DNA from: Agreia sp. Leaf283
GTDB taxonomy: Bacteria > Actinomycetota > Actinomycetes > Actinomycetales > Microbacteriaceae
Length of the DNA stretch: 64,000 nucleotides
Direction of reading: 5' to 3'
NCBI RefSeq assembly: GCF_001422485.1
Contig: NZ_LMNF01000003.1
Coordinates: 1-64,000, forward strand
Shown here piece by piece: positions 5,891 to 62,968 of this stretch; the stretch's first letter is position 1; every line of letters begins with the position of its first letter. Below the pieces are notes generated by a model, which had not been told where the DNA came from, made no database searches, and was given only the letters and a program-made list of their open reading frames with translations. A program made the position numbers and the translations under genes.

Positions 5891-6025
5891 CTCGTTCCCT
5901 GAGCCTGTCGAAGGGACCGGACGTGCGCTGCCTCGTTCCCTGAGCTTGTCGAAGGGGCCCGGCGTGCGCTGCCCCGTTCCCTGAGCTTGTCGAAGGGACC
6001 AGCCCCTCGACGAGCTCAGGCAACG
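5891..6025. repeat. Tandem array of the GTTCCCTGAGC(T/C)TGTCGAAGGG repeat, 41-bp period
   Basis: Three direct units start at 5891, 5932 and 5973. Each has CGTTCCCTGAGC(T/C)TGTCGAAGGG followed by a spacer ending GTGCGCTGC in the first two. A degenerate inverted copy (CCCCTCGACGAGCTCAGGCAACG) closes the array at 6003-6025, immediately before the acyl-CoA dehydrogenase stop. The same motif occurs near 37482-37569, 52107-52130 and 62666-62729. Confidence 0.9.
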
Positions 6026-37481: not shown

Positions 37482-37569
37482 CGTTCCCTGAGCTTGTCTC
37501 AGAGCGCCCGTTCCCTGAACTTGTCGAAGGGCGCCGCTTCGACAGGCCCTTCGACAGGCTCAGGGAACG
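37482..37569. repeat. Cluster of GTTCCCTGAGCTTGTCGAAGGG repeats at a convergent gene end
   Basis: Two direct copies (37482-37500, truncated, and 37509-37532), a partial inverted copy (37537-37546) and a full inverted copy (37547-37569) fill the gap between the secA stop and the end of the Rv3235-like gene. The inverted pair can fold into a long stem and may also end both transcripts. Confidence 0.88.
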
Positions 37570-44979: not shown

Positions 44980-46530
44980 TCAGTCCCAGTTCACCACCGG
45001 GTTGTCAGACGCCATGTCGACCGAGGGGGTTCCGAGGGCCGGGGCGAAGTAGATCGAGCAGCGCCCGGTCGCTCCATCCTTCGTGCAGTCGGCCTCGACC
45101 GACGGCGAGCCGATGTACTCGCCCTCGACCAGCGTGGGATTGTCGTAGCTCGGCGTCGCCTCGAGGGAGTCGAGCGTCGCGTTCGAGTCGGCGCTGAGGC
45201 TGCGGGTGATGGTGCCGTCGGCGAGCTGCGTGCCGTCGCTGATGGTCGCAGGCAGATCGATGCCACAGCCGGCGGCCAACGTGGTCGACGCGATGCAGGC
45301 GTCGACCGCTGCCCTCACGAGACCGCGGAACTGCTGCAGGGCCTCTTCGGTGAGCGCGGGCTTGATCTGCGACGTGTCGGCCGATTCATACGGCTCCGTG
45401 ATCGTCACCGTGGTGGGGCCGGAGAGCGTGAAGTTCTTCAGCGAGGTGGCCAGCTCGTACGTGCCGGGGAACACCTCCACCGATTCCGCGTCGACCTCTA
45501 CACCGTTGATCGTGAGTCCCAGACCGTCGAAGGGCTCGGTGTAGATCGAGCCGGTGCCTCCGCTGATCTCCCACTTTCCGTCGTCGTCGTAGTCGGACGT
45601 GCTGAAGGTGGTGGTGATGGGCTCGCCGTTCAGCATGTACGTCGCCGTGACATCGGCCGAACCGCTTTCGCCCTTCGTCTCGGGAACGTCGATCTCGGTG
45701 ATCGGTGCCAGCTCGGCCGACGCCGCGAGGGCCTCGTCGGTGAGCAGCGTCGAATCGTTCGGAGGCGAGCTGAGGTAACCGAGCGCGGTCTTGGCGTCGC
45801 CGTCGGCGATGGCCGTGAGATAGTCGGTCACGGCGTCTGAGGGCGATGACGCCTGTGCCTTGGGCTCTTCGCCACCCCCGCCGCCTCCGCCGCCGGCCAT
45901 TCCGCCGATGCGCGAGATACCGAAGACGACGCCGACCACCAGAAGCACGACCACGAGAATCGCACCGCCGATGATTCCGATCAGGGCGCCCGTGCCGAGC
46001 TTGCGCTTGGGTCCCTTCGGCGCCGCGTAGCCTGCGGTGGGCTGAGCGCCGTACTGCGGTGCTCCGTTTTGCGGTGCTCCATACTGCGGCGCACCGTTCT
46101 GGGGAGCGCCGTTCTGAGGTGCTCCGTTCTGCGGTGCTCCGTACTGGGGCGCGCCGGGGGCCTGGGGCGGCGCCGAGGGCGGCACGTACTGCCCGCCCGC
46201 GTACGGCGGCTGCTGCGGTGCCTGAGGCGCGGACGGTGCCTGCGGGGGCGCGGCGGGAGCCTGCGGAGGCGCTGACGGTGCGTGCGGCGGCGCGGCGGGT
46301 GCCTGCGGAGGCGCTGACGGTGCCTGCGGCGGCGCGGCGGGAGCCTGCGGAGGTGTAACCGGCGCGGACGGCGCCTGCGGCACATCCGGCGCCTTCGGTG
46401 TCTCGGGAGCGGGCGGCACCTGCTGTGCGTCGGGCGCGTCAGGCGCCTCCGGCTGCGCCGGGGCGCCGGGGAATGCGGGGAGCGGGGGAGTGCCCTGTTT
46501 GTCTTCGGCCCTGTCGTCGTTGTCGCTCAT
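44980..46530 (-). CDS. Proline-rich single-pass membrane protein with extracytoplasmic domains
   Basis: A 516-residue protein from ATG 46530, with GAAGGA five bases before it. Residues 1-170 are Pro/Ala/Gln-rich with PPQAPAAPPQAPSAP-type repeats and NGAPQ/YGAPQ repeats. A single helix follows (GALIGIIGGAILVVVLLVVGVV), then a run of eight glycines. The outside part starts with a DUF4878/lumazine-binding-like segment (PSDAVTDYLTAIADGDAKTALGYL) and ends in beta-rich sequence with a cysteine pair (DCTKDGATGRCSIYF). Such proteins are common in actinomycetes, and a role at the cell surface is inferred. The function is unknown. Confidence 0.78.
   Translation of the reverse strand: MSDNDDRAEDKQGTPPLPAFPGAPAQPEAPDAPDAQQVPPAPETPKAPDVPQAPSAPVTPPQAPAAPPQAPSAPPQAPAAPPHAPSAPPQAPAAPPQAPSAPQAPQQPPYAGGQYVPPSAPPQAPGAPQYGAPQNGAPQNGAPQNGAPQYGAPQNGAPQYGAQPTAGYAAPKGPKRKLGTGALIGIIGGAILVVVLLVVGVVFGISRIGGMAGGGGGGGGEEPKAQASSPSDAVTDYLTAIADGDAKTALGYLSSPPNDSTLLTDEALAASAELAPITEIDVPETKGESGSADVTATYMLNGEPITTTFSTSDYDDDGKWEISGGTGSIYTEPFDGLGLTINGVEVDAESVEVFPGTYELATSLKNFTLSGPTTVTITEPYESADTSQIKPALTEEALQQFRGLVRAAVDACIASTTLAAGCGIDLPATISDGTQLADGTITRSLSADSNATLDSLEATPSYDNPTLVEGEYIGSPSVEADCTKDGATGRCSIYFAPALGTPSVDMASDNPVVNWD
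46028..46370 (-). repeat. Coding repeats in the proline-rich N-terminus
   Basis: From 46028 to 46150, units of 15 to 18 bases code (N/Y)GAPQ. From 46225 to 46370, units of about 45 bases code PPQAP(A/S)AP pairs. Both are in frame and imperfect, a typical pattern of slippage-prone disordered regions. Confidence 0.75.
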
Positions 46531-46619
46531 GGGTTCCTTCGTCGTTACGGAATGGGCTGTGCGTTCGGGCACACGGGCGAGCGCCGCGACATCGATCGCT
46601 CGATATCGCGACAAGCTCG

Positions 46620-47633
46620 TCACCCCCCAGTCTGGTGCCAGACGAAGTCGATTGCAGCCCTCAACGCGGCGAGCCCCTCTGGACGGTCGAGATCGAACTG
46701 GTATTCGTGCGGCAGCGGGGGAGTGAGATCGTCGGGCCAGAACAGCCGCGTCACGTCGACGCCCAGCGACTCCAAGCGATCGGCGAACGGCTTCGCCTGG
46801 CCGTCGGTCAGGGGGTCGCCGTTGCCTCCGCTGATGAATGTCGGAGGAAACGCCGCGGTCGCCCGGTGCATCATCGACATCTGCCCGAGCAACGGCGACG
46901 TGGCGAAGCGACGGCCGCCCACGTAGGCGTGCAGGGCTGTTCGGTTGCCCCATCCGACGATGCCCGTCGCGGTCAGCAGGCCCTCCAGGTGGTAGATGCC
47001 GCAGTGCAGGATCACACCGCGCAGCTGGTGTGCCGCAAGACCGGGCCGGATGCCGAGCTCGGCCGCATAGGCCGGGTCGGTGATGGCGGTGGCCAGCTGG
47101 CTCGAGAGCTGGGCGCCCGCCGAGTCGCCGGCGAGCACGATGCGGTCGGGGTCGATGTGCAGCGCGTCGGCGTTCGCGACGAGATAGGCGTGGGCGTCGT
47201 TCAGCTGGTGCACGGCGGTGGGATAGCGGCTCGCGGGGCCTCGGGAGTAGTCCACGCTCACCACCGTGAAGCCCGCCGCGGCGAGCAGCTCGAAGTAGGG
47301 CGCCGCGTTCGCGCGGCCGCCCGAGATCCACGCGCCGCCGTGCGTCCAGACCACGGTCGGAAGGCCGGCCGACGCGCCCGACGGGTGGTAGACATCCAGA
47401 AGCGCGTGCTGGTCGTGCGGCCGATACCGGATGCCGGTGGCCCGGTCGACCCCGCCCGGTGCGTGGGCCTGCAGGGCCTTCAAGACGCGCGCCCCGTCTT
47501 TCTCGAAGACATATCGCACGAGTATCGCCGACGGCCACGGGCTCAGTTTCCACGCGGAGATCGCGGCCGCAGTGACGGCTCCGATGACGACCGCCGCCGT
47601 TCCGACGCGGGCGCGTGTGCGTCGATGGGTCAT
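46620..47633 (-). CDS. Alpha/beta-hydrolase, HSL/BD-FAE-type esterase
   Basis: A 337-residue hydrolase with an N-terminal membrane helix or uncleaved signal (VGTAAVVIGAVTAAAISAW). Family motifs: the oxyanion motif HGGAWISGG, the nucleophile elbow LAGDSAGAQLSSQL with the catalytic Ser, the acid in SGGNGDPLTDGQ and His in PLPHEYQF. The pattern matches short-chain carboxyl esterases of the hormone-sensitive-lipase group. The natural substrate is unknown. Its ATG overlaps the stop of the hydrolase upstream (ATGA), so two exported-side hydrolases are made together. Confidence 0.9.
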   Translation of the reverse strand: MTHRRTRARVGTAAVVIGAVTAAAISAWKLSPWPSAILVRYVFEKDGARVLKALQAHAPGGVDRATGIRYRPHDQHALLDVYHPSGASAGLPTVVWTHGGAWISGGRANAAPYFELLAAAGFTVVSVDYSRGPASRYPTAVHQLNDAHAYLVANADALHIDPDRIVLAGDSAGAQLSSQLATAITDPAYAAELGIRPGLAAHQLRGVILHCGIYHLEGLLTATGIVGWGNRTALHAYVGGRRFATSPLLGQMSMMHRATAAFPPTFISGGNGDPLTDGQAKPFADRLESLGVDVTRLFWPDDLTPPLPHEYQFDLDRPEGLAALRAAIDFVWHQTGG

Positions 47634-48364
47634 TGCAGGGCTCCCGTGATCGTGTCGGTGATGATGTCGCGCATATCGGAGTCGTCGATCGAGGAGTCAC
47701 CGTCGCCGGCTTGCAGCCCGTAGTCGCCGAAGGCCGCGTGGTTGGCTCCCTCGATCTCGACGAAGGTCGTGTCTGCGGGCAGCGCCTTCGCGTTGGCGTC
47801 GATCTTGGCGGGCGTGCTCAGCCCGTCGGCGCTTCCAGAAAGCGAGACGACGGTCAGCTCGGAGTCGGAGAGGTTGTTGGCGCAGTACGACCCGAAGAGA
47901 ACGAGCCCCTTCACATCAGGAGAGTCGGCGTACATGCACGCCTTCACCCCGCCCAGGGAGTGCCCGCCCACGAACCAGTCGGAGACGTCGGGCGCGAGTG
48001 AAGTGAAGGCCGAGAGAGGCCGCGTCTCGAACAGCCCGAAATTGAGGAACGGGCGCACGATCACGACCGTGTATCCGGCATCGACGAGGCCCGACAGTTT
48101 GTAGGCGTAGGCGACGGGTTCGATCTTGGCGCCCGCGATGAAGACGAGGCCCTCGCCGTTCGCGTCGGAGGCGGGAGCCATGACGACCGAGTCTCGCGAG
48201 TAGTCGAGGGAGATCGCCGGGTCATCTGCCACCTCGGCGAGAGGCTCGCGCTCGGCGGCGGATGTGACGTTGGCGTAGACGAGAAAACCGCTCGCACCCA
48301 CGACGATCGCGGCGACGAGAACGGCGGCGGTGGCGCGCAGCGCGCCGCGACGGCGAGAAGTCAT
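47630..48364 (-). CDS. Alpha/beta-hydrolase, dienelactone-hydrolase-like, membrane-anchored
   Basis: A 244-residue protein from ATG 48364. The N-terminal helix (AAVLVAAIVVGASGFLVYANV) anchors it or serves as a signal. The nucleophile elbow is VGGHSLGGVKACMYA, with the acid probably in LSGSADGLSTP and His in IEGANHAAFGDYG. The layout is that of the PF12695-type hydrolases. It is coupled to the second hydrolase and divergent from arfB, with 36 bases between the starts. The substrate is unknown. Confidence 0.87.
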   Translation of the reverse strand: MTSRRRGALRATAAVLVAAIVVGASGFLVYANVTSAAEREPLAEVADDPAISLDYSRDSVVMAPASDANGEGLVFIAGAKIEPVAYAYKLSGLVDAGYTVVIVRPFLNFGLFETRPLSAFTSLAPDVSDWFVGGHSLGGVKACMYADSPDVKGLVLFGSYCANNLSDSELTVVSLSGSADGLSTPAKIDANAKALPADTTFVEIEGANHAAFGDYGLQAGDGDSSIDDSDMRDIITDTITGALQ

Positions 48365-50695: not shown

Positions 50696-52072
50696 ATGTC
50701 GAAGAAATTGTCATCGCTGATCATTCTCGGAGCCTCAGGCGACCTCACCTCGCGCCTGCTCCTTCCCGGCCTCGGCCAGCTGCTCGACGAGCAGGGCGAG
50801 CGCCACCTGCAGCTGATCGGCGCGGGCAGCGCCGACTGGAGCGACGACGACTTCAGAAAGGTCGTCGACACGGCCTTCGACACGGTGAACTGCACCGGGC
50901 CGTCGGGCGATCACACGCGAACCACCGCCACCTATGTGAAGGCCGACGTCACCGATCCGGCCGTGCTGCAGAAGCTCATCGACTCGTGCGATGCCGCCCC
51001 CGCGATCTACTTCGCCCTGCCTCCCGCCGTGGCCGTGGCCGCCTGCACCGCTCTCGAGCACGTCACCCGGCCGGCCGGGCTCACGCTCGCCCTCGAGAAG
51101 CCGTTCGGCACCGACGTGGCGAGCGCGGAGGCGCTGAACGCGCAGCTGGCCAAGCTCGTTCCCGAGAACCAGATCCACCGCGTCGACCACTTCCTCGGCC
51201 GCTCCACCGTCTTCAACCTGCTCGGCCTGCGCTTCGCGAACCGCATCTTCGAGCCCGTCTGGAACGCCGAGCACATCGAGAAGGTCGACATCGTCTACGA
51301 CGAGCAGCTCGGGCTCGAGGGCCGGGCCGGCTACTACGACACCGCGGGCGCTCTCATCGACATGATCCAGAGCCACCTGCTGCAGGTCATGGCGGTGGTC
51401 GCGATGGAGCCGCCGTCGACACTCGGCGCCGACGACCTGCGCGACGCGAAAGAGATCGTGCTGCGCGCCACGAGCCTGAAAGACGGCGATCCGGCCGCCT
51501 CGAGCCGACGCGCCCGCTACACCGCGGGCGACGTCGACGGCCGCGAGATGCCCGCCTACTCCAAGGAGCCCGGCGTCGTCGCCTCGCGCAAGACCGAGAC
51601 GCTCGCCGAGGTCACCGTGCAGATCGACACGTGGCGCTGGGCCGGCGTGCCGTTCACCCTCCGCAGCGGCAAGGCGCTCTCCGAGCGTCGTCGCGAGATC
51701 GCGATCACGTTCAAGAAGGCGAACAGGGTGCCCACCGGGCTCACGGGAACCGAGCATCCGAACGTTCTGCGCATCTACCTCGCCCCCGACAAGATGTCGT
51801 TCGAGCTCAACGTGAACGGTCCGGGCGACCCCTACGAGCTCGAGAAGACACAGCTCGACGCCCTCTTCGGCGACGGCCAGCTGCTGGCCTACCGAGAGGT
51901 GCTCGCGGGCATTCTCGACGGAGACCCCTCGCTGTCGGTCAGGGGCGACTCTGCCGTGGAGGGATGGCGCATCGTGGCCCCGGTGCTCGAGGCGTGGCGG
52001 GCCGACGAGGTGCCGCTCGACACATACAAGGCGGGCTCCGACGGCCCGTCGAAATGGGCCCGCATCGGCTGA
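50696..52072 (+). CDS. zwf: Glucose-6-phosphate dehydrogenase
   Basis: It oxidises glucose 6-phosphate to 6-phosphogluconolactone with NAD(P) and opens the oxidative pentose phosphate route. Its 458 residues are a little short of the usual 480-510. The nucleotide site is IILGASGDLTSRLLLPGLGQL, the substrate and catalytic site is IHRVDHFLGRSTVFNLL, and EKPFGTD and WRWAGVPFTLRSGKAL are further family motifs. The companion genes opcA, tal, tkt and pgl usually clustered with zwf in actinomycetes are absent here, so this may be a second zwf copy in the genome. A repeat copy follows 34 bases after the stop. Confidence 0.94.
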   Translation: MSKKLSSLIILGASGDLTSRLLLPGLGQLLDEQGERHLQLIGAGSADWSDDDFRKVVDTAFDTVNCTGPSGDHTRTTATYVKADVTDPAVLQKLIDSCDAAPAIYFALPPAVAVAACTALEHVTRPAGLTLALEKPFGTDVASAEALNAQLAKLVPENQIHRVDHFLGRSTVFNLLGLRFANRIFEPVWNAEHIEKVDIVYDEQLGLEGRAGYYDTAGALIDMIQSHLLQVMAVVAMEPPSTLGADDLRDAKEIVLRATSLKDGDPAASSRRARYTAGDVDGREMPAYSKEPGVVASRKTETLAEVTVQIDTWRWAGVPFTLRSGKALSERRREIAITFKKANRVPTGLTGTEHPNVLRIYLAPDKMSFELNVNGPGDPYELEKTQLDALFGDGQLLAYREVLAGILDGDPSLSVRGDSAVEGWRIVAPVLEAWRADEVPLDTYKAGSDGPSKWARIG

Positions 52073-52106
52073 CCCCGGATGGGCCCTGCGCTGGATGGAC
52101 ACGCAG

Positions 52107-52130
52107 CCCTTCGACAGGCTCAGGGAACGG
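52107..52130. repeat. Single copy of the GTTCCCTGAGCTTGTCGAAGGG repeat (inverted orientation)
   Basis: CCCTTCGACAGGCTCAGGGAACGG lies in the convergent gap between zwf and the adenylate-forming ligase. It has no inverted partner. Confidence 0.88.
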
Positions 52131-52158
52131 ACCTGGGGGATCGAAACCACTCCTGCTG

Positions 52159-53526
52159 TCAGGCGCGCGAGACGTAGCGGCGGGGTTTGCCCTCCCCGAG
52201 CTCAGAGAGCGAACCCCGCCGCTGCACCTCGACCGGGCGTCCCAGCAGCGCCTCGAGGGCGGCCGTGACCCGCGCCGAGTCGCCCCGCACGATCGTCGCC
52301 TCGACCCGGCCCGTCGCATCCTGCACCACCGACCAGCCGTGGGCGCCGGCCGCCTGCAGGTGCTGGGTCAGGTCGACGCACGGCACGCGGCTGCCATCGG
52401 AGGCGAGGAACGTGGTCGCCTCGCGGCCCTCGAGGTCGGCGATCGCGAGCCGACCGTCGACGTCGACCAGGCGCCCGAAGTCGCCGGTGCGGTAGCGCAC
52501 GAGCGGCAGCAGCGGATTCTCGCCGGCGGTCACCACGATCTCTCCGTTCGCGCCGGCCGGGGCCGGCCGGCCCAGCTCGTCGACCACCTCGACGCGAACG
52601 CGCCGGTCGAGCACCACGAACGGGCCGTCGTCGGCTCGGGATGCGATGGGCCGGGTCTCGTGGAGTCCGTAGATGTCGATCACGGGGCAGCCGTAGGCGC
52701 GCTCGAGGTCGTGGCGCAGCGCGCTCGACAGGGCCATCGCGCCGGAGAAGATCACGAGGGGGCGGAGCGCCGCGACGAGCTCGGGGTCGAGCAGCTCGGC
52801 GAGGCTCGTGGGGCTGCCGCTGAACGCTTGCGGGTTCTGGGCGACGAGGAAGCGCGTGCGCGTGTCGGGGCTGCGCCAGCCGCGCTCGTCAAGGTTGAGA
52901 CGCGCCATCGTGGCCTGGTCGAAGGAGCTGATCACCGAGGCGTAGGTGAACGCCTGTCGCTGCTTCACGACGTGGGCGAGTGCGAGGCGGCTGTGATCCG
53001 GCGCCCATTCGACGCCCTGCTCCGCCGCGAGCGAGACCATGAGGTGGAAGGTGCGTGCCGTGTCCTCGATGTCGTCGGGAATCAGCAGCGCCCGGCCCGT
53101 GCTGCCCGAGCTCGAGCCGTGCACGGCCCGTGCGAGATCGGCGTCGAGGGGCACGAACGCCGACACGTCGTCGACGAGGTCGTCGCGGACGATCAGAGGA
53201 AAGTCCTGCAGCGAGAGAAGCTCGGCCGCACGTCTTCTGTAGGCGGGAAGGCGTCGCGCGGTGTCGAGGTGCTCGTCGATCCAGCCGGTCGTCGGCAGCG
53301 GCTGGCGAACGCGCCGCACGGCCTCGGACGAGAGCCGGTCGCCTGTGGCGTGAACCCAGGCCGGGGCATCCGGATGCGACCGCAGCGTCTCGAGCCGTCG
53401 CGCGCCCTCGGCGCTGAGCGTCGGCCAGCGCTCGGCATCGACGAGGGCCGTCTGGCCGCCGGGGGCGTACTCGGCGATGGCCAGCGGATCGTCGGGGTCG
53501 GGCGCATTCATGCCGTTCACGCTCAT
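52159..53526 (-). CDS. PaaK/LuxE-like adenylate-forming ligase, last gene of the AAA/vWA operon
   Basis: A 455-residue ANL-superfamily enzyme, expected to activate a carboxylate with ATP. The AMP/phosphate loop is VHGSSSGSTGRALLIPDD, a Y-G-x-x-E-like motif is IDIYGLHETRPIA, and the hinge motif is LLPLVRYRTGDFGRLVD. A C-terminal GEGKPRRYVSR supplies the lysine expected near the end of PaaK-type enzymes. Length and motifs fit phenylacetate-CoA ligase or LuxE acyl-protein synthetase and not the longer acyl-CoA synthetases. No CoA-pathway genes are adjacent. ATG 53526 overlaps the stop of the previous gene (ATGA). An enzyme that adenylates or tags a target under control of the ATPase is an inference. 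Confidence 0.78.
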   Translation of the reverse strand: MSVNGMNAPDPDDPLAIAEYAPGGQTALVDAERWPTLSAEGARRLETLRSHPDAPAWVHATGDRLSSEAVRRVRQPLPTTGWIDEHLDTARRLPAYRRRAAELLSLQDFPLIVRDDLVDDVSAFVPLDADLARAVHGSSSGSTGRALLIPDDIEDTARTFHLMVSLAAEQGVEWAPDHSRLALAHVVKQRQAFTYASVISSFDQATMARLNLDERGWRSPDTRTRFLVAQNPQAFSGSPTSLAELLDPELVAALRPLVIFSGAMALSSALRHDLERAYGCPVIDIYGLHETRPIASRADDGPFVVLDRRVRVEVVDELGRPAPAGANGEIVVTAGENPLLPLVRYRTGDFGRLVDVDGRLAIADLEGREATTFLASDGSRVPCVDLTQHLQAAGAHGWSVVQDATGRVEATIVRGDSARVTAALEALLGRPVEVQRRGSLSELGEGKPRRYVSRA

Positions 53527-54194
53527 TCGTGGGTGTACCGGGCTGCCGCCTCGCGTGCCCGGGCGTCGTTCAGCGCGCGGGTCACCTCGAGCCGATGAGC
53601 GTGCTCGGCGGCAGCGGCCGCCAGCGCTCCGTTGCGTTGCAGCGAGTCGCGCATGTCGAGCAGCGATCGAGCCGTCTCGCGATCCTCGCCGGCGGGCAGC
53701 GCACCCGACCAGAGCAGGAACGTGCGGGCGGCCTCGTCTCGGCGCTCGGCGTCGCTGATCCACTCGGAGGGATCGACCACTGCGGCCAGGCGCAGCGCGA
53801 GAGCCGCGAGGGTGCGCGACGCGTGGGCGGTCTCGAGCCGGGGAGTGAATGCGCCGAGCAGGTCTTCGCTCGCCCAGAGCCACAGGGCGATGGCCGCGCC
53901 CCGCCGAGCGGCCGACGACCTCGTCTGGGCGACGTCGGTGAGCAGCTGCACGATCTCGGTCGATGCGGGCGTGCGGCCCCTGTCGGCGCCGAGAACGTCG
54001 CCGGCGAGGCCCAGCAGGGAGACCCGGTCGTCGAGGAAGCTCTTCGGGATGCTCGACAGGCGACTGCTCACGACGTCGACCGACGGCCCGGGCACGGCCT
54101 GCTGCCAGGCGGCGTCGACGTCGTCGCCGCGGTCGAGCCAGCGCTGCAGCAGCTGCTCGGCCGAGTCGATCTCTGGTTCCGTGCGATCAGCCAC
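53523..54194 (-). CDS. Unknown helical protein, fourth gene of the AAA/vWA operon
   Basis: A 223-residue protein, almost entirely alpha-helical and Ala/Leu/Arg-rich (SAEQLLQRWLDRGDDVDAAW, TLAALALRLAAVVDPSEWI, LLDMRDSLQRNGALAAAAAEHAHRLEV). The pattern suggests a HEAT/TPR-like or four-helix scaffold, but no family is recognised. There are no catalytic motifs and no cysteines. The start is GTG 54194, with an excellent GGAGG five bases before it, inside the end of the vWA gene. The frame continues upstream to 54272 but that part overlaps vWA coding sequence. Confidence 0.7.
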   Translation of the reverse strand: MADRTEPEIDSAEQLLQRWLDRGDDVDAAWQQAVPGPSVDVVSSRLSSIPKSFLDDRVSLLGLAGDVLGADRGRTPASTEIVQLLTDVAQTRSSAARRGAAIALWLWASEDLLGAFTPRLETAHASRTLAALALRLAAVVDPSEWISDAERRDEAARTFLLWSGALPAGEDRETARSLLDMRDSLQRNGALAAAAAEHAHRLEVTRALNDARAREAAARYTHE

Positions 54195-56157
54195 GTCGAC
54201 CTCCAGCGTCGGTTCGAGGGCCCAGCGGATCGGCGAGTCTCCGGGCCAGGCGCGCGCAGACGAGGGGCGCATCCGTCATGCGGTCGATGTACTCGACGTC
54301 GTAGCCCGCCTCGGTGGCGGGCTTCGTGAGGCGGCGACCGGCATCCTGCACGACGAGCGTGGCGGTGTCGATCACGCGGCGCACCGTGCGTGCCACGTCG
54401 GCGTACTGGGGCTGACCCGCGCCGAACATCGACTGCAGGCCGTCGTCGGAGAGCACGACCACGTGCCGCCGGGTGGCCGATGCGCCCACCCCGCGCGAGC
54501 GTCGCGCGTCTGCGTACCGCGCCGCGTAGAGGTCGAGCGGGAACGTCGTTCCGTGCCCGAAGTAGAAGGTGAGGTCTCGCATCAACTCGGCCCTGTCTCG
54601 GGTGAACCGCGCGCCGCCGGCGACCTCGCCGGCCGCCGAGAACGACGTCACGCGCGCCTGCCCGCCACCGCGGAGGGCGCTCAGGATCAGGATGGTGCCG
54701 GCCAGCACGCCCGGCGATTCGCGTCGAGGCGCGGTCATCGAGCCGGAGGAGTCGATGTAGATGTCGAGCTGCACGCTCTCGCGGGCGTCGGGAGGAGCAT
54801 CCGGCAGAACGTCGCGGAGCCTCGTCGTGACGCCGGGAACGACGGTCGTGCTGTGCGACAGAGACGCCGGCCAGTCGATCGACGAGATGTCGTCGTCGAT
54901 GTTCCACTGCTCCAAGGCGCCCGGGATGGTCTCATCGAGCGAGCGGGGCCTGGCCGAGGGCTGGGTGAGGGGCCGCACGTATCGGCGGGCAGCAGTGAGG
55001 TACCAGGCCGCCACGACGTCGTCGGCGCTCGCCGCCGAATAGAGCTCGAGTGTGTCGGCCAGTCCGTAGCCCTGGCCGAGCCCATCGACGCCCGCGGCTC
55101 CGGTCGAGCCATCGTCGGCCTCCATGCCGGTGCCCGAGGCTCGCTCGGCCTGTCGCGCTTTCTCGACGGCCGGATGCTCCGGCACCTCGCGCAACCGCGG
55201 GTCGCCGAGCACCCGCTCGAGTTCGGCCGCCGTCGGAGCCGTCTCGTCGGCCTGACCCGCGCATCCGCCCGCCGCCTGCGCGCCGGCCGATGTCGACCGC
55301 CGACGGGGTTGCTCGTCGGCGATCAGGTAGGGGGCCATGATCATGCCGAAGCGCAGCGCGCCGCTCACCGGGTCGTCTGCGAAAGTGCGCACGGTCTCGG
55401 CGAGGAGGGCGGCGTCGAGGGGCGGATTCGTGAGCACGAGCTCTGCCCAGACGGCCTCGGCGGCGATGCGGGCGTCGGCGGCCGCCGCTGCCTCGACGGC
55501 CTTCAGTCGCTGCTCCTCGGTCTTCGTCGCGGCCGGCACGGTCGGGGGCGGAGGCTCGCGGTGCACGACGGGCCGCGGTGGTGGTTCGGCCGGGCACAGG
55601 AATCCGGCAGGCCTGCTCCAGAGAATCTCGTAGGCACGCAGCACCACCCACCAGAGCTGGTCGCTCGGCGGCTCGGCAGACAGCACGCGCCACATGCGCA
55701 CCATCTCGGGTTCGGGGGATGCGCCGCCGTCGCGCTGCCGCTGCATCGTCGCGACCCGGGTGTTGATCAGCATGTCCGACCACAGATTCGACATGCGGCG
55801 GGCCTTGCCGTCGGGATCGGGGATGCGGGCCCGGCCCGTGGCGGCGATGGCCCGGGCGATCTGCTGGGTGATCGTGAACGAGTCGATGCGCGTGCTCGGA
55901 GACAGCACGTGATGGCCGATCTCGTGCGCGAAGATCGATTCGTAGAAGCCGTCCACCCCGTGTCGGCGCGCCTCGACGGGATCGACGGAGACCTGCGGCG
56001 GAAACGAGAACCAGGCGAACGACGGCATCGTGGACCCGGGCTCGAGCAGGGGATCGTGCAGTCGCACGCCCCACAGCGCCTGCGCCGACTGCCAGGCCGC
56101 GCGCTGCTGCTCGTCGAGCGTGTGCTCGCGTGCGCGAGTGCCGAGAGGTGGCGTCAT
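54187..56157 (-). CDS. HExxH-peptidase/von Willebrand A fusion protein
   Basis: A 656-residue protein. Residues 1-180 form a zinc-peptidase-like domain with the motif FAHEIGHHVLS (His78, Glu79, His82), followed by NLWSDMLINTRV (Asp128), a likely site for the third ligand. The arrangement resembles the DUF2201-type putative metallopeptidase/vWA proteins. A Pro-rich hinge (about 189-210) and a variable middle part lead to a vWA domain with an intact MIDAS: Asp469, Ser471 and Ser473 in IYIDSSGSM, a Thr in GHGTTFPLD and Asp in VVLSDDGLQSMF. No signal or membrane segment is present, so it acts in the cytoplasm. Both ends overlap neighbouring genes. Confidence 0.82.
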   Translation of the reverse strand: MTPPLGTRAREHTLDEQQRAAWQSAQALWGVRLHDPLLEPGSTMPSFAWFSFPPQVSVDPVEARRHGVDGFYESIFAHEIGHHVLSPSTRIDSFTITQQIARAIAATGRARIPDPDGKARRMSNLWSDMLINTRVATMQRQRDGGASPEPEMVRMWRVLSAEPPSDQLWWVVLRAYEILWSRPAGFLCPAEPPPRPVVHREPPPPTVPAATKTEEQRLKAVEAAAAADARIAAEAVWAELVLTNPPLDAALLAETVRTFADDPVSGALRFGMIMAPYLIADEQPRRRSTSAGAQAAGGCAGQADETAPTAAELERVLGDPRLREVPEHPAVEKARQAERASGTGMEADDGSTGAAGVDGLGQGYGLADTLELYSAASADDVVAAWYLTAARRYVRPLTQPSARPRSLDETIPGALEQWNIDDDISSIDWPASLSHSTTVVPGVTTRLRDVLPDAPPDARESVQLDIYIDSSGSMTAPRRESPGVLAGTILILSALRGGGQARVTSFSAAGEVAGGARFTRDRAELMRDLTFYFGHGTTFPLDLYAARYADARRSRGVGASATRRHVVVLSDDGLQSMFGAGQPQYADVARTVRRVIDTATLVVQDAGRRLTKPATEAGYDVEYIDRMTDAPLVCARLARRLADPLGPRTDAGGRRG

Positions 56158-56873
56158 CGCGCCTTCTCCAGCACGAGCCAGGCGAGGTACGAGGTGTCGA
56201 AGACGGCGAGTCGGGTCGGCCAGGCACCGGATGCCTCGGGCCGGCCAGCAGGGTCGGTTGCGGTCGTGGGCGCCTCATCGGGCGGCAGCCGGGAGAGGGT
56301 CGTGCCGAAGATGTCGGCGTCGAGCTGCCACCGCTCGCCGTCGGTGAGGGTGATGACGAATCGGCCCTCCCGATCGCCGTGCTCGCCGGTCATGGGCGGT
56401 GCCGTCCATGCGCCGCCCAGCCCGCGGAATCCGCCGACGCGGGCGATCACCACGTCGCCGTCGCCCCGGGCCGGCCAGCCGAACGGGCTCTCGGCCTGGG
56501 CGCTCGCGAAGTCGTCGAGTTCGGAGGGCTGCAGGCCCACGGCACTCACCAGCGCCTGCCGCGGCACCGAGCCGGAGCCGAGCGCCTCGCCGAGCCGGGT
56601 GAGAGCATCCTGCCTCAGATCGAGTATGCCCGAGCGCCACGCCGCGAGGGCTGCGAGCGTGAGAACGGTGTGCGGAAGCGGCCCGTCGGTGCCGCCCGCG
56701 ATGTCGTCGGCTGCGAGGGCCTGTGAGAGAAAGTGCCGGTAGAGGGTCGAGTCTCCGCCCCAGGACTCCACGTTGCGCACCGACTGGTCGACATCGAAGC
56801 CGGGAACGACGGGCGCGACCGTCGTCTGCGGCAGCAGGCCCTCGTCGACGGCCTGCCCGGGCCGCCTGATCAT
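56154..56873 (-). CDS. Unknown two-part protein, second gene of the AAA/vWA operon
   Basis: A 239-residue protein from ATG 56873 (MIRRPGQAVDEGLLPQTTV). Residues 30-125 are helical (WGGDSTLYRHFLSQALAADD, HTVLTLAALAAWRSGILDL). Residues 130-235 are beta-rich (GDVVIARVGGFRGLGGAW, GRFVITLTDGERWQLDADIF) and end LAVFDTSYLAWLVLEKAR. No family is recognised. Given its place between a MoxR-like ATPase and a vWA protein, an adaptor that links the two is the simplest idea. It overlaps both neighbours by four bases (ATGA). Confidence 0.7.
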   Translation of the reverse strand: MIRRPGQAVDEGLLPQTTVAPVVPGFDVDQSVRNVESWGGDSTLYRHFLSQALAADDIAGGTDGPLPHTVLTLAALAAWRSGILDLRQDALTRLGEALGSGSVPRQALVSAVGLQPSELDDFASAQAESPFGWPARGDGDVVIARVGGFRGLGGAWTAPPMTGEHGDREGRFVITLTDGERWQLDADIFGTTLSRLPPDEAPTTATDPAGRPEASGAWPTRLAVFDTSYLAWLVLEKAR

Positions 56874-58444
56874 CGGGGGCGACCCTCGAGCCACTGCAGG
56901 TAGTTGGTGTAGCGCTGGTGCAGGTACTTCAAGGCCACGAGGTCGTCGAAATGCCGCCCGTAGAGCTTCTTCTGCTTCGAGATCGTCTGGATCTGAGACT
57001 CGATGGCCGTGAGGCGGCGCGATGACTCGACCTGGCTGACGCCGTCGAGGCCTGCCGCGAACTCCGCGAGCAGATCGCCGACAGGATCGCTCTTCGCGAG
57101 TCCGAGTGACAGGAACTGGCGGCGCGACTGCTCGAACAGATCGCCGAGCCAACTGATCGAGTCGGTCGCGAGCTCCCTGTCGGCTCCGGTCTCGAACCGG
57201 GGGTGCAGCTCGTTCGGAAGGAGTTTGCCCCGCAACGAGAACGGCAGCACGGCGGCGACGTCGTCGAGCCCGACCACGTCGACGCCCCGGAAGTAGGCCA
57301 TGGCCTTCGCGTAGGTGATGAGCGACTGCAGCGCCCGCGCCGAGATGCTGTTCACGGTCTGCGCCCCGAGGTCGACCTGCAGATCGGCGCCCGTGTTGCT
57401 GTCGATGACCTCTCCGACCTGGCCTCCCGAGGTCATGACCGTGTCTTTCGTGCGGTATTCGAAGCGACGGCCGCCGTGCTGCACGAACTCGAACTGGCTC
57501 GCGAAGAACTCGAGCTGCCGACGCACGTCGCGGGGAACAGGCACTGCCCGGATGGCCGCCGCAAGAGCGGCCTGCTCGGTGGGGGTGAACACCAGCTCGG
57601 CGGGAACGTGGTCTTCGGGCTTCTCTCCTGCCTCGACCCGGGTGATCAGCTCGTCGAAGAACCTGCTGTTGAATCCCTGCGCGGCGACCGTCACGTCGAC
57701 CCTGTCTTTGAGAGCCTGGATGACCGGGAACGTTCCGCCGCCCGAATCGTCGTTGGCGGTGAAGAACCAGCTCTCGACCCCGGACTCGGGAGCCGTGCGA
57801 AGCATCTGGTCGTAGCTCTCGACGTAGCCCTCGGCCACCATCGTGAGCAGCGCGGACTGGGTCTTTGTGGGAATGCGGTTGTACTCGTCGATGATCTTGA
57901 CGGGCTTCGTGAGCCAGCCGCGCCAGGCGATGGTGATCTCGGGAAGGCTGGCGGCGTTCACGAGGTCGCGAGGCAGAGGCATGCCGACGAGGTCTCCCAC
58001 GGTGAGCTGCGGCTGACCCTGCTGCACACTTCGACGCACCTCGGCGGGTTCGGTGCCGGCGATCACGGCCATCAGCACGGCGAGGGTGGTCTTGCCACGA
58101 CCCGGGCCACCGACGAGCAGGCACTTTCCGCCGACCGCCGTGGTGAGCAGGGGCAGCAGCACGTTCGACGAATAGGACTGGTCGGTGGGCAGGTGCAGCT
58201 CTGCACCGGCGTCGCCGAGGGCAAAACTCACCGGGGCGTCGAGGGAGAATTCGATGTCGTAGAAGGGCGAGATGACGGCGCGGTTGACGAGCCAGAAATA
58301 GATCCGGCGCAGCTTCTCGTCGAGGGCGACCTGGTCGACGCGGTCGGGTTGGCGAAACAGGTCTTCGGCCGTCAGGCCGGGGTGGGATGCGCCGGTGCCG
58401 GTTCGCGTGGGGGATTCCGAGATCTTGTTCCAGCGATTGGGCAT
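56870..58444 (-). CDS. MoxR-like AAA+ ATPase of the peptidase/vWA operon
   Basis: A 524-residue ATPase, much longer than ordinary MoxR proteins (about 320). The AAA core lies in residues 95-240: Walker A GGPGRGKT (112-119), Walker B VKIIDEYNRIPTKTQSALL (182-200) and sensor 1 in WFFTANDD (Asn231). An N-terminal 90-residue extension and a C-terminal part of about 150 residues are specific to this type; the latter has QFEFVQHGGRRFEYRTKD and a charged helical end (SQIQTISKQKKLYGRHFDDLVALKYLHQRY). Asp-Glu in Walker B and Lys in Walker A are intact, so it should be active. MoxR ATPases typically remodel a vWA partner, here two genes downstream. Confidence 0.88.
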   Translation of the reverse strand: MPNRWNKISESPTRTGTGASHPGLTAEDLFRQPDRVDQVALDEKLRRIYFWLVNRAVISPFYDIEFSLDAPVSFALGDAGAELHLPTDQSYSSNVLLPLLTTAVGGKCLLVGGPGRGKTTLAVLMAVIAGTEPAEVRRSVQQGQPQLTVGDLVGMPLPRDLVNAASLPEITIAWRGWLTKPVKIIDEYNRIPTKTQSALLTMVAEGYVESYDQMLRTAPESGVESWFFTANDDSGGGTFPVIQALKDRVDVTVAAQGFNSRFFDELITRVEAGEKPEDHVPAELVFTPTEQAALAAAIRAVPVPRDVRRQLEFFASQFEFVQHGGRRFEYRTKDTVMTSGGQVGEVIDSNTGADLQVDLGAQTVNSISARALQSLITYAKAMAYFRGVDVVGLDDVAAVLPFSLRGKLLPNELHPRFETGADRELATDSISWLGDLFEQSRRQFLSLGLAKSDPVGDLLAEFAAGLDGVSQVESSRRLTAIESQIQTISKQKKLYGRHFDDLVALKYLHQRYTNYLQWLEGRPR

Positions 58445-58486
58445 GGCACCAGTCTAGGAAGCGGGGAGCCGTGCCGGGGAGTGCTG

Positions 58487-58849
58487 TTACGCGGCGCGGA
58501 CAGGACCGACGAGTGTCGTAGTGCGGGGAGCGGCGTCGGTGACAGCCTTGGCCAGCTCTGCGGGCACATCGACGGTGTTGATCGGGGCGAGCGGCGTGCG
58601 CGAGACCGGGGTCTCTGCGGCGCGGAAGACGCCGTGGCTGGTGAGCGTCGACACGATGTCGCGGGCCACCGAGGCGGCGAGAACGGTGTGGAAGATATCG
58701 TCGGTGTCGACCTCGGTGCGCCGAGTGATCGCGAACGATCCATAGGGGCCGAAGTTCTCCATGAGGGTCTGGTTCACCAGCTCGGAAAGACGCTGCTGGT
58801 TGGCCTCGTCTTGTTGTTCTGCCTTCGCGCGTCGTCGCCATCCGAGCAT
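58487..58849 (-). CDS. Small protein of unknown function ahead of the AAA/vWA operon
   Basis: A 120-residue protein from ATG 58849, with GGGAAGG eight bases before it. The N-terminus is short and basic (MLGWRRRAKAEQQDEANQQR), then a helical segment (LSELVNQTLMENFGPYGSFAI) and a mixed region (VLAASVARDIVSTLTSHGVF). No domain is recognised. The gap to the ATPase gene is 42 bases, on the same strand, so it may be the first gene of the operon or an independent neighbour. Confidence 0.65.
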   Translation of the reverse strand: MLGWRRRAKAEQQDEANQQRLSELVNQTLMENFGPYGSFAITRRTEVDTDDIFHTVLAASVARDIVSTLTSHGVFRAAETPVSRTPLAPINTVDVPAELAKAVTDAAPRTTTLVGPVRAA

Positions 58850-62166: not shown

Positions 62167-62968
62167 CCGCCTGCCCGTCATCGGCCTCACGACCTATCTC
62201 GAACGCGCGAAGACCGGAGTGTGGGACGTTCCCGCCTCGTTCCTTCCGAAGGTCTACTTCGATGCCGTGGAGAAGGCCGGCGGCATCGCCGTGCTGCTGC
62301 CGCCCCAGGCTGTCAGCGAACCGATCGCCGACCGCCTGCTCGACTCGCTCGACGGGCTGATCCTCACCGGCGGCAAAGACATCGATCCGTCGCGCTACGG
62401 CCAGGAGGCCCACGCCGAGACCGACGAGCCGCGACGCGACCGCGACGCGTGGGAGGACACCCTGCTGCGCCGTGCGATCGATCGAGAGATTCCGTTCCTC
62501 GGCATCTGCCGGGGAGCGCAGATGCTGAACGTCGCGCGCGGCGGAACCCTGCACCAGCACCTCCCCGATGTCGTCGGAGATCGTCGCTACCAGGCGGGCG
62601 AGGGCATCTTCAACCACGTCGAGGTCGGCGTCGAACAGGGCTCGCGCCTTGCCACGCTGCTCTTCCCGTTCCCTGAGCTTGTCGAAGGGAATGCATCGGA
62701 TACTTCCCTTCGACAAGCTCAGGGAACGGCTCTAATCGACGTTCCCGTCTACCACCACCAGGCCATCGACGCGCTCGGCGACGGGCTCGTCGTCACCGCC
62801 CGAACTCCCGACGGAACGATCGAGGCCGTCGAGCTCGAGTCCGTACCGTTCGGCGTCGCCGTGCAGTGGCATCCCGAGGAGTCGCCCGACGACATCCGGC
62901 TGTTCGCCGGTCTCGTCGACGCGGCCCGACACTACCGAGAACAGAGACGGGAACACCCGACCACATGA
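62153..62968 (+). CDS. Class I amidotransferase-like gamma-glutamyl hydrolase (PuuD-type), carrying a repeat insertion
   Basis: A 271-residue protein from TTG 62153, overlapping the synthetase-like gene by 14 bases. The catalytic triad is present: Cys119 in FLGICRGAQMLNV, His240 and Glu242 in VQWHPEES. LILTGGKDIDPSRYG is a family motif. The family releases glutamate from gamma-glutamyl intermediates, which fits the pathway. Residues 172-193 (PFPELVEGNASDTSLRQAQGT and following) are coded by a 64-bp palindrome (62666-62729) and have no match in the family, which usually passes straight to the xxVxSxHHQAI segment (here DVPVYHHQAID). The frame stays open, so the protein may still work. Confidence 0.87.
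   Translation: MSASDRLPVIGLTTYLERAKTGVWDVPASFLPKVYFDAVEKAGGIAVLLPPQAVSEPIADRLLDSLDGLILTGGKDIDPSRYGQEAHAETDEPRRDRDAWEDTLLRRAIDREIPFLGICRGAQMLNVARGGTLHQHLPDVVGDRRYQAGEGIFNHVEVGVEQGSRLATLLFPFPELVEGNASDTSLRQAQGTALIDVPVYHHQAIDALGDGLVVTARTPDGTIEAVELESVPFGVAVQWHPEESPDDIRLFAGLVDAARHYREQRREHPTT
62666..62729. repeat. Perfect palindrome of two repeat copies inside a coding region
   Basis: Left arm 62666-62691 and right arm 62704-62729 are perfect 26-bp complements, each a copy of CCGTTCCCTGAGCTTGTCGAAGGGAA, with a 12-base loop. It is the best-preserved inverted pair of the repeat family in the window. Confidence 0.95.

Follow-up and report, generated by a model that had tools for sequence, protein, structure and literature searches.

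Adenosine triphosphatases (ATPases) of the MoxR type and their partners with a von Willebrand factor A (vWA) domain follow a common scheme, set out in excerpts of one paper, in which the vWA domain captures a client peptide and the action of the ATPase remodels the client (PMC7159879). The same excerpts describe RavA-ViaA and CoxD-CoxE as pairs of an ATPase and a vWA co-chaperone that mature or remodel dedicated complexes, together with ternary conflict systems in which a MoxR-type ATPase gene lies near that of a vWA protein and of further conserved proteins, with defined third components (VMAP, iSTAND, FtsH or a beta-propeller) and variable effectors (PMC7159879). In group 2.2 jumbo phages, according to excerpts of a second paper, a MoxR ATPase is encoded next to a protein that joins an N-terminal metallopeptidase domain to a vWA part, with a proposed role in virion assembly (PMC7824862). 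The five-gene unit considered here, A-B-C-D-E, lies in a 64,000-nucleotide stretch of the Agreia sp. Leaf283 genome (contig NZ_LMNF01000003.1, positions 1 to 64,000; this whole 64-kb stretch is the window, and the genome, of genus Agreia, has 4.0 Mb). It joins a MoxR-type ATPase (A) and a vWA-like protein (C) to two proteins of no known family (B and D) and a predicted adenylate-forming ligase (E). Some actinobacteria inherit these five genes as a unit, and every such genome examined also has nadR, a gene of nicotinamide adenine dinucleotide (NAD) salvage, which hints at a machine, as yet undescribed, that is connected with NAD metabolism.

A MoxR ATPase with a metallopeptidase-vWA partner is already a known kind of pair; the five-gene set and its NAD link are apparently undescribed. 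C resembles the jumbo-phage protein in joining a zincin-like motif to a vWA part, whereas that pair belongs to phages and the excerpts mention no B, D or ligase (PMC7824862). From the ternary conflict systems, as excerpted, A-E differ in that no such third component or effector is recognised among them, in the ANL ligase and in the NAD-salvage link; the main text of that paper (main text only) does not contain 'adenylate', 'AMP-forming', 'AMP-ligase', 'LuxE' or 'acyl-CoA' (PMC7159879). An earlier reading of the window from its letters alone (the sequence-only reading) knew of no named system with this composition, and none appeared among the matches listed in the literature searched, which describe neither the five-gene set nor an NAD link for it (most subscription journals lay outside the scope); no paper there contained both MoxR and PnuC, or both MoxR and 'AMP-dependent synthetase'. 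To our knowledge RavA-ViaA, CoxD-CoxE and similar pairs have no zincin-like domain, ligase or NAD-salvage operon.

The unit spans 52159-58444 on the minus strand and is read in the order A (56870..58444, 524 amino acids, aa), B (56154..56873, 239 aa), C (54187..56157, 656 aa), D (53523..54194, 223 aa, with a GTG start) and E (52159..53526, 455 aa), with overlaps of 4, 4, 8 and 4 nucleotides (nt) at the A/B, B/C, C/D and D/E junctions; the five overlapping genes of the sequence-only reading stand, coordinates included. Surveys with gene A or gene C found 24 genomes that hold the unit, the window genome among them, spanning 11 genera, 5 families and 2 classes by their kinship labels. Profiles built from eight loci and run on all of them recover A-B-C-D-E in one order and on one strand in 24/24, so that the expectation of a constant order across distant genera is borne out and A-E is therefore one real conserved unit. 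Start codons in this set were picked nearest to a 4-nt overlap, a choice of which order and strand are independent; because of it, the count of overlapping junctions (86 of 96) is biased towards overlap. The slowest gene is A, with 50-97% identity to the window protein across the 24 loci, and the fastest is B (23-90%). A tree of the A genes unites the ten loci from family f1, the deeper order being unresolved. A scan for promoters and terminators gave no promoter-like site and three terminator-like sites, against 1.7 expected by chance.

Gene A scores above the Pfam cut-offs for AAA_3 (29.6 bits, cut-off 27), AAA_lid_2 (25.8, cut-off 22.7) and AAA_5 (23.4, cut-off 22), of which AAA_3 marks the MoxR clade, and its P-loop GGPGRGKT (G112-T119) and Walker B residues D186/E187 are invariant in all 24. 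The AAA_3/AAA_lid_2 profiles, P-loop and Walker B identify A as a MoxR AAA+ ATPase, which is how it had first been read. In the PDB its profile has a single match at E <= 0.001, to 2r44 (E 1.4e-6), an entry that bears the name of an uncharacterized protein.

Protein C has an N-terminal HEIGHH motif (H78, E79, H82, H83) with NLWSDMLIN downstream, and HExGHH and N124/D128/N132 are invariant in 24/24. Its C-terminal vWA-like part holds what we take to be a complete metal ion-dependent adhesion site (MIDAS), D469-x-S471-x-S473, T537 and D571, all five residues being likewise invariant in the 24. The motifs on which C had been called a peptidase/vWA fusion are in this way upheld; no profile over cut-off came to the support of the names, and 'peptidase' and 'vWA' are used below as putative, motif-based labels. 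Window C has no Pfam match up to E 1 and no NCBIfam or PADLOC match, and C has no match among PDB sequences up to E 10. The best weak Pfam matches of eight C members are Peptidase_M48, in 2 of them with a lowest E of 0.015, and VWA_2, in 3 with a lowest E of 0.12, and chance-like families match the same eight at similar E-values. Membership of the DUF2201/COG3864 metallopeptidase-vWA family was considered and rejected: PF13203 (DUF2201_N) has no match in the window genome, the eight C members have no DUF2201 match, hhalign against the sole relative sequence found gave a probability of 0.1% (a weak test, on a single sequence), and papers naming DUF2201/COG3864 contributed nothing relevant among the matches listed. 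At the G416 locus (L014:10945-11013) the first codons of gene C are in a different frame from the rest, and the start looks frame-shifted or shortened.

Protein E exceeds the Pfam AMP-binding cut-off (38.4 bits, cut-off 29.9), as part of a set in which 6/8 members match that profile, and bears motifs that we take to be A3, A5, A7, A8 and A10; on profile and motifs it belongs to the ANL superfamily. The AMP-binding score and the nearest solved structures, which are phenylacetate-coenzyme A (CoA) ligases, agree with the original call of an ANL ligase of the PaaK type. With the PaaK/DVU_1553 families of adenylate-forming CoA ligases it shares G141, E290, D349 and R368, invariant in 24, and the A10 lysine, kept in 20/24; it differs in lying far under the family cut-offs, with 77.7 bits (E 8.2e-22) against 300 for the DVU_1553 ligase model and 40.3 against 646.3 for the curated PaaK model TIGR02155. 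B and D have no Pfam match up to E 1 and none in NCBIfam or PADLOC, just as the two had been described at the outset. B has 10 invariant residues besides the start among the 24, and D has L208, R212, E215, A216 and A218; an alignment of eight D members displays a conserved C-terminal tail, ARAREAAAR, which is a candidate contact. Both proteins are probably adaptors.

The connection to NAD metabolism is found upstream of A. In tblastn searches the pair for nicotinamide riboside (NR) salvage, nadR and the NR transporter gene pnuC, precedes A in 14/24 loci and 8/11 genera, in each case upstream and with the strand shared. In 10 of these loci no more than 100 nt separate the end of the nadR match from A, and in the other linked ones no more than 3.5 kb; in 4 loci the predicted nadR and A share 4 nt. 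Flanking-gene calls likewise show genes of the PnuC and NadR types upstream of A, in its strand, for most genera other than Agreia. This link falls outside the window, which is why the sequence-only reading missed it. The PnuC proteins score 78.9 (L014), 97.0 (L015), 92.3 (L090) and 72.1 (L096) bits with TIGR01528, above its cut-off of 42.45, and Pfam agrees with this identification in the members tested. The NadR proteins match nearly the whole of TIGR01526, the model for nicotinamide mononucleotide (NMN) adenylyltransferase, at 172.9-185.7 bits for three linked and 117.2 and 96.7 bits for two unlinked ones, against an equivalog cut-off of 341.15. The nucleotidyltransferase HxGH pattern is present in 26 of the 28 NadR loci scanned (not in L096 and L099). 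In most NadRs seen, linked ones included, the kinase P-loop reads GAESTG[T/S]TTL, with T or S in place of the usual lysine (L014, L015, L050-L055, L065, L068-L072, L078, L080, L084, L090-L093, L097, L098 and L100), and the lysine is kept (GKTT) in L094/L095 (G591/G811) and L096/L099. This change was rejected as a signature of the five-gene cassette, being common to cassette-free G259, G854, G832 and G836.

Co-occurrence was assessed with a NadR profile from ten linked genes in 80 genomes whose cassette status had been established. The cassette-free side of this sample consists of 3 Agreia, 56 genomes of genus g52 and 8 of 19 from family f14; the sample omits G668, G678, 51 further cassette-free relatives, the 11 remaining cassette-free f14 genomes and 11 genomes in which nadR is linked to the cassette. 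NadR is present in 13/13 cassette-bearing and 4/67 cassette-free genomes (Fisher 8e-12), the split being 5/5 versus 0/3 within Agreia (Fisher 0.018) and 4/4 versus 4/56 within g52 (Fisher 1.4e-4), with 0/8 in cassette-free f14; these Fisher values overstate the case because related genomes are treated as independent. With the linked loci added to the 13 genomes tested, all 24 cassette-bearing genomes hold a NadR-type gene. The dependence is one-sided: the cassette implies NadR and the reverse does not hold, PnuC-NadR salvage differing from the unit in that it also exists without the five genes. G259, G832 and G836 have pnuC-nadR and no cassette; in genus g52 the same downstream genes have nearby, in the absence of A-E, pnuC-nadR in G259 and nadR in G854, the G854 stretch having no PnuC match.

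NadR is encoded away from the cassette in 10 of the 13, which makes 10 of the 24 genomes unlinked overall. Unlinked NadR lies beside pnuC in those examined (G000 and G002 of the five Agreia, G869, G1131 and G1157), and G591 and G811 have a PnuC match ~3 kb from NadR. Scores with the NadR profile, 589-641 bits for linked and 283-291, 225-232 or 100-102 bits for unlinked proteins, separate different subfamilies. G869 is without the local pnuC-nadR of its genus mates and has a different, Agreia-type pair on another contig. Near the unlinked pnuC-nadR of L091 (G869), L092/L093 (G832, G836) and L096/L099 (G1131/G1157) there is also a NUDIX-like gene, the one in L096 matching a model for an NAD regulator at a score far under its cut-off, and L091 and L092 have in addition a nearby gene that resembles, by eye, an ADP-ribosylglycohydrolase.

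The unit is rare and is gained or lost as a block. Surveys with gene C found it in 6/60 relatives and 3/394 genomes of the class; surveys with gene A gave 15/396 in the order, 3/394 in the class and 2/396 in the phylum, and in subsets 2/66 in the class of G591, 4/60 in genus g52 and 5/24 in family f14. (Counts include the window genome where it was drawn, and the class, phylum and order surveys scored three candidates per genome.) The variable presence anticipated in the sequence-only reading is seen at a fixed Agreia site, where G006 and G007 are without the whole insert (52073..58484): window positions 52072 and 58485 map 13 bases apart in G006, and 52072 and 58491 map 28 bases apart in G007. 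(Agreia G005-G007 were scored for the cassette by gene C, and G005 is fragmented.) The two ends of the Agreia insert have no repeat in common, C is absent from the plasmid collection searched, and A is absent from plasmid and phage collections (50,697 phage records, E 1e-3); on these three counts A-E was rejected as a mobile element. No integrase was noticed beside the cassettes, no dedicated search having been made. The sole ligase match on a plasmid is from Embleya, 30% over half of the protein, in an unannotated stretch.

We tentatively favour, at somewhat short of an even chance, the reading that A-E encode one ATP-driven remodelling or processing machine that depends on NR-to-NAD salvage. 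By the common MoxR-vWA scheme, as excerpted, A would drive C (PMC7159879); A itself would form a MoxR-type hexamer. The vWA/MIDAS part of C would grip a client peptide and its zincin-like domain would cut the client or load it with metal, with B and D acting as adaptors or scaffolds. E would adenylate a carboxylate and hand it to the client or to a small molecule; PaaK-like enzymes favour aromatic acids. NR salvage would be needed if the machine, or an enzyme matured by it, consumes or makes an NAD/NMN-type metabolite, and since unlike NadR subfamilies serve and G869 has a pair of another type elsewhere, a need for NR-to-NAD flux would fit better than contact with one particular NadR. MoxR-vWA machines are widespread and the clients of many are unknown; here the ligase, the zincin-like motif and the metabolic tag of NR salvage make the role of A-E directly testable, and the unit gives a handle on two protein families, B and D, without recognised relatives. 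If dependence on NAD salvage is real, ATP-driven protein remodelling would be linked to NAD metabolism.

Several observations weigh against this reading. Profiles place C in no peptidase family (eight members, Pfam), and AlphaFold models built from three sequences are unusable for C (mean pLDDT 31.5) and unreliable for B (pLDDT 45.7). The A10 lysine of E is altered in 4/24 (two have arginine there, one has the lysine displaced by a single position and one lacks it). On the salvage side, all five NadRs tested fall under the equivalog cut-off, those of G1131/G1157 are weak (102-103 bits), and the NadR gene of G591 (L094:8890-9909) has one in-frame TGA; most NadRs are without the kinase P-loop lysine, and their NR kinase activity is therefore only predicted. 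NadR also occurs in the 4 of 67 cassette-free genomes, and the Agreia pattern of NadR and cassette may reflect one joint gain or loss, the base of the tree being unresolved.

That the five genes are a chance run of overlapping high-GC open reading frames, an idea to which the abundance of long antisense frames in the window lends some colour, has a negligible probability: it is refuted by the order kept in 24/24 loci, the invariant catalytic motifs and the clean empty site in relatives. A more serious contender, still unlikely, is a conflict system of the MoxR-vWA kind, anti-phage or stress-death in function, in which infection would trigger the cutting or acylation of a target and NR salvage would then restore NAD. 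The excerpts propose a conflict role for MoxR-vWA pairs that have further components, and link some actinobacterial ones to zincin-like metallopeptidases (PMC7159879); presence at a fixed site is patchy, and a MIDAS-bearing vWA protein, called by motif and not by profile, does lie near the MoxR gene, C being two genes from A. The same five genes recur in 24/24 loci, however, with none swapped and no variable effector, the co-occurrence partner is a salvage pathway, and ATPase A is missing from plasmid and phage collections. PADLOC on A-E gives weak, generic P-loop ATPase matches in A only (best E 0.0066), none in B-E and no defence-system match; VMAP, iSTAND, FtsH and beta-propeller have no match in B-E in Pfam, NCBIfam or PADLOC, the coverage of them by these libraries being unchecked and remote versions possible. 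Around the cassettes, 81 flanking proteins from 12 loci gave scattered matches that make up no recognisable complete defence system (best 25 of 34 PADLOC families). They were selected from 129 proteins at 14 loci, the 48 dropped being all 20 of L050/L051 (from the genus of L014 and L049), 16 pnuC/nadR, 11 at or near stretch ends and one of 51 aa. The commonest flanking PADLOC matches (mad3, mad8, AriA) proved on re-scanning ten proteins to be three ABC-transporter ATPases, the others re-scanned being helix-turn-helix (HTH) proteins, a dGTPase and a GlgB-like protein; among the matches listed, one or more proteins have SNF2-helicase-type, CSD_V and Csa3 matches. Flanking Pfam families are mainly metabolic, transport and regulatory (best 25 of 116 families). 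From these scans of cassette and flanks a defence island was judged unlikely, and with no third component, no variable effector and five constant genes a conflict system, as the sequence-only reading would have had it, is not favoured on balance.

The layout of a seven-gene operon, with the predicted nadR running into A by 4 nt in 4 loci, would also suit a post-translational regulator, in which the MoxR/vWA machine would tune NAD supply by remodelling or cutting PnuC or NadR. We consider this rather improbable: the cassette accompanies NadRs of different subfamilies, unlinked in 10/24 genomes, which argues against one specific protein contact, and three genomes maintain pnuC-nadR with no cassette to regulate it. 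Shared ancestry or niche could instead have brought NadR into genomes whose A-E is an unrelated maturation machine, and independent origins are indeed few, with Agreia possibly one event; such a coincidence seems to us distinctly improbable in view of the linkage in 8/11 genera, of G869, which lacks the local pair and yet keeps a NadR of another type, and of the contrast within g52 (4/4 versus 4/56). Least probable among the NAD-related accounts, and very much a long shot, is that the seven genes pnuC-nadR-A-B-C-D-E serve to build a new cofactor or protein modification from NAD and to put it in place. NR would be taken up and converted to NMN/NAD, E would activate a pyridine-type carboxylate, and the MoxR/vWA-zincin machine would insert the product, perhaps with metal, into a client enzyme, by analogy with the NAD-derived nickel-pincer cofactor and in the likeness of MoxR-vWA metal-insertion machines.

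The genes on either side of A-E lie outside the unit. On the left, the fixed flank is a convergent plus-strand gene (50696..52072) that we take, from its sequence, to be zwf (glucose-6-phosphate dehydrogenase); it adjoins the cassette in all 5 cassette-bearing Agreia and the empty site in G006 and G007. On the right in Agreia is a 120-aa gene (58487..58849, minus strand, as is the unit), which is there whether the cassette is or not. Between this 120-aa gene and A, Agreia G001 and G003 have a further 5.6 kb (L016:2040-7503; L018:12613-18076) that by eye resembles a module of an RND/MMPL-type transporter and a two-component system, and the interval is a variable site. A 20-base repeat, CCCTTCGACAGGCTCAGGGA, has 8 copies in the window at <=2 mismatches, where none is expected by chance: one, at 52107-52126, belongs to the insert and sits in the gap that separates zwf from gene E, and the others lie in 5896-5997, 37512-37566 and 62670-62725. 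Elsewhere in the window, a protein within the minus-strand frame 44980-47700 has, by eye, a likely transmembrane segment after a long stretch rich in proline, alanine and glutamine.

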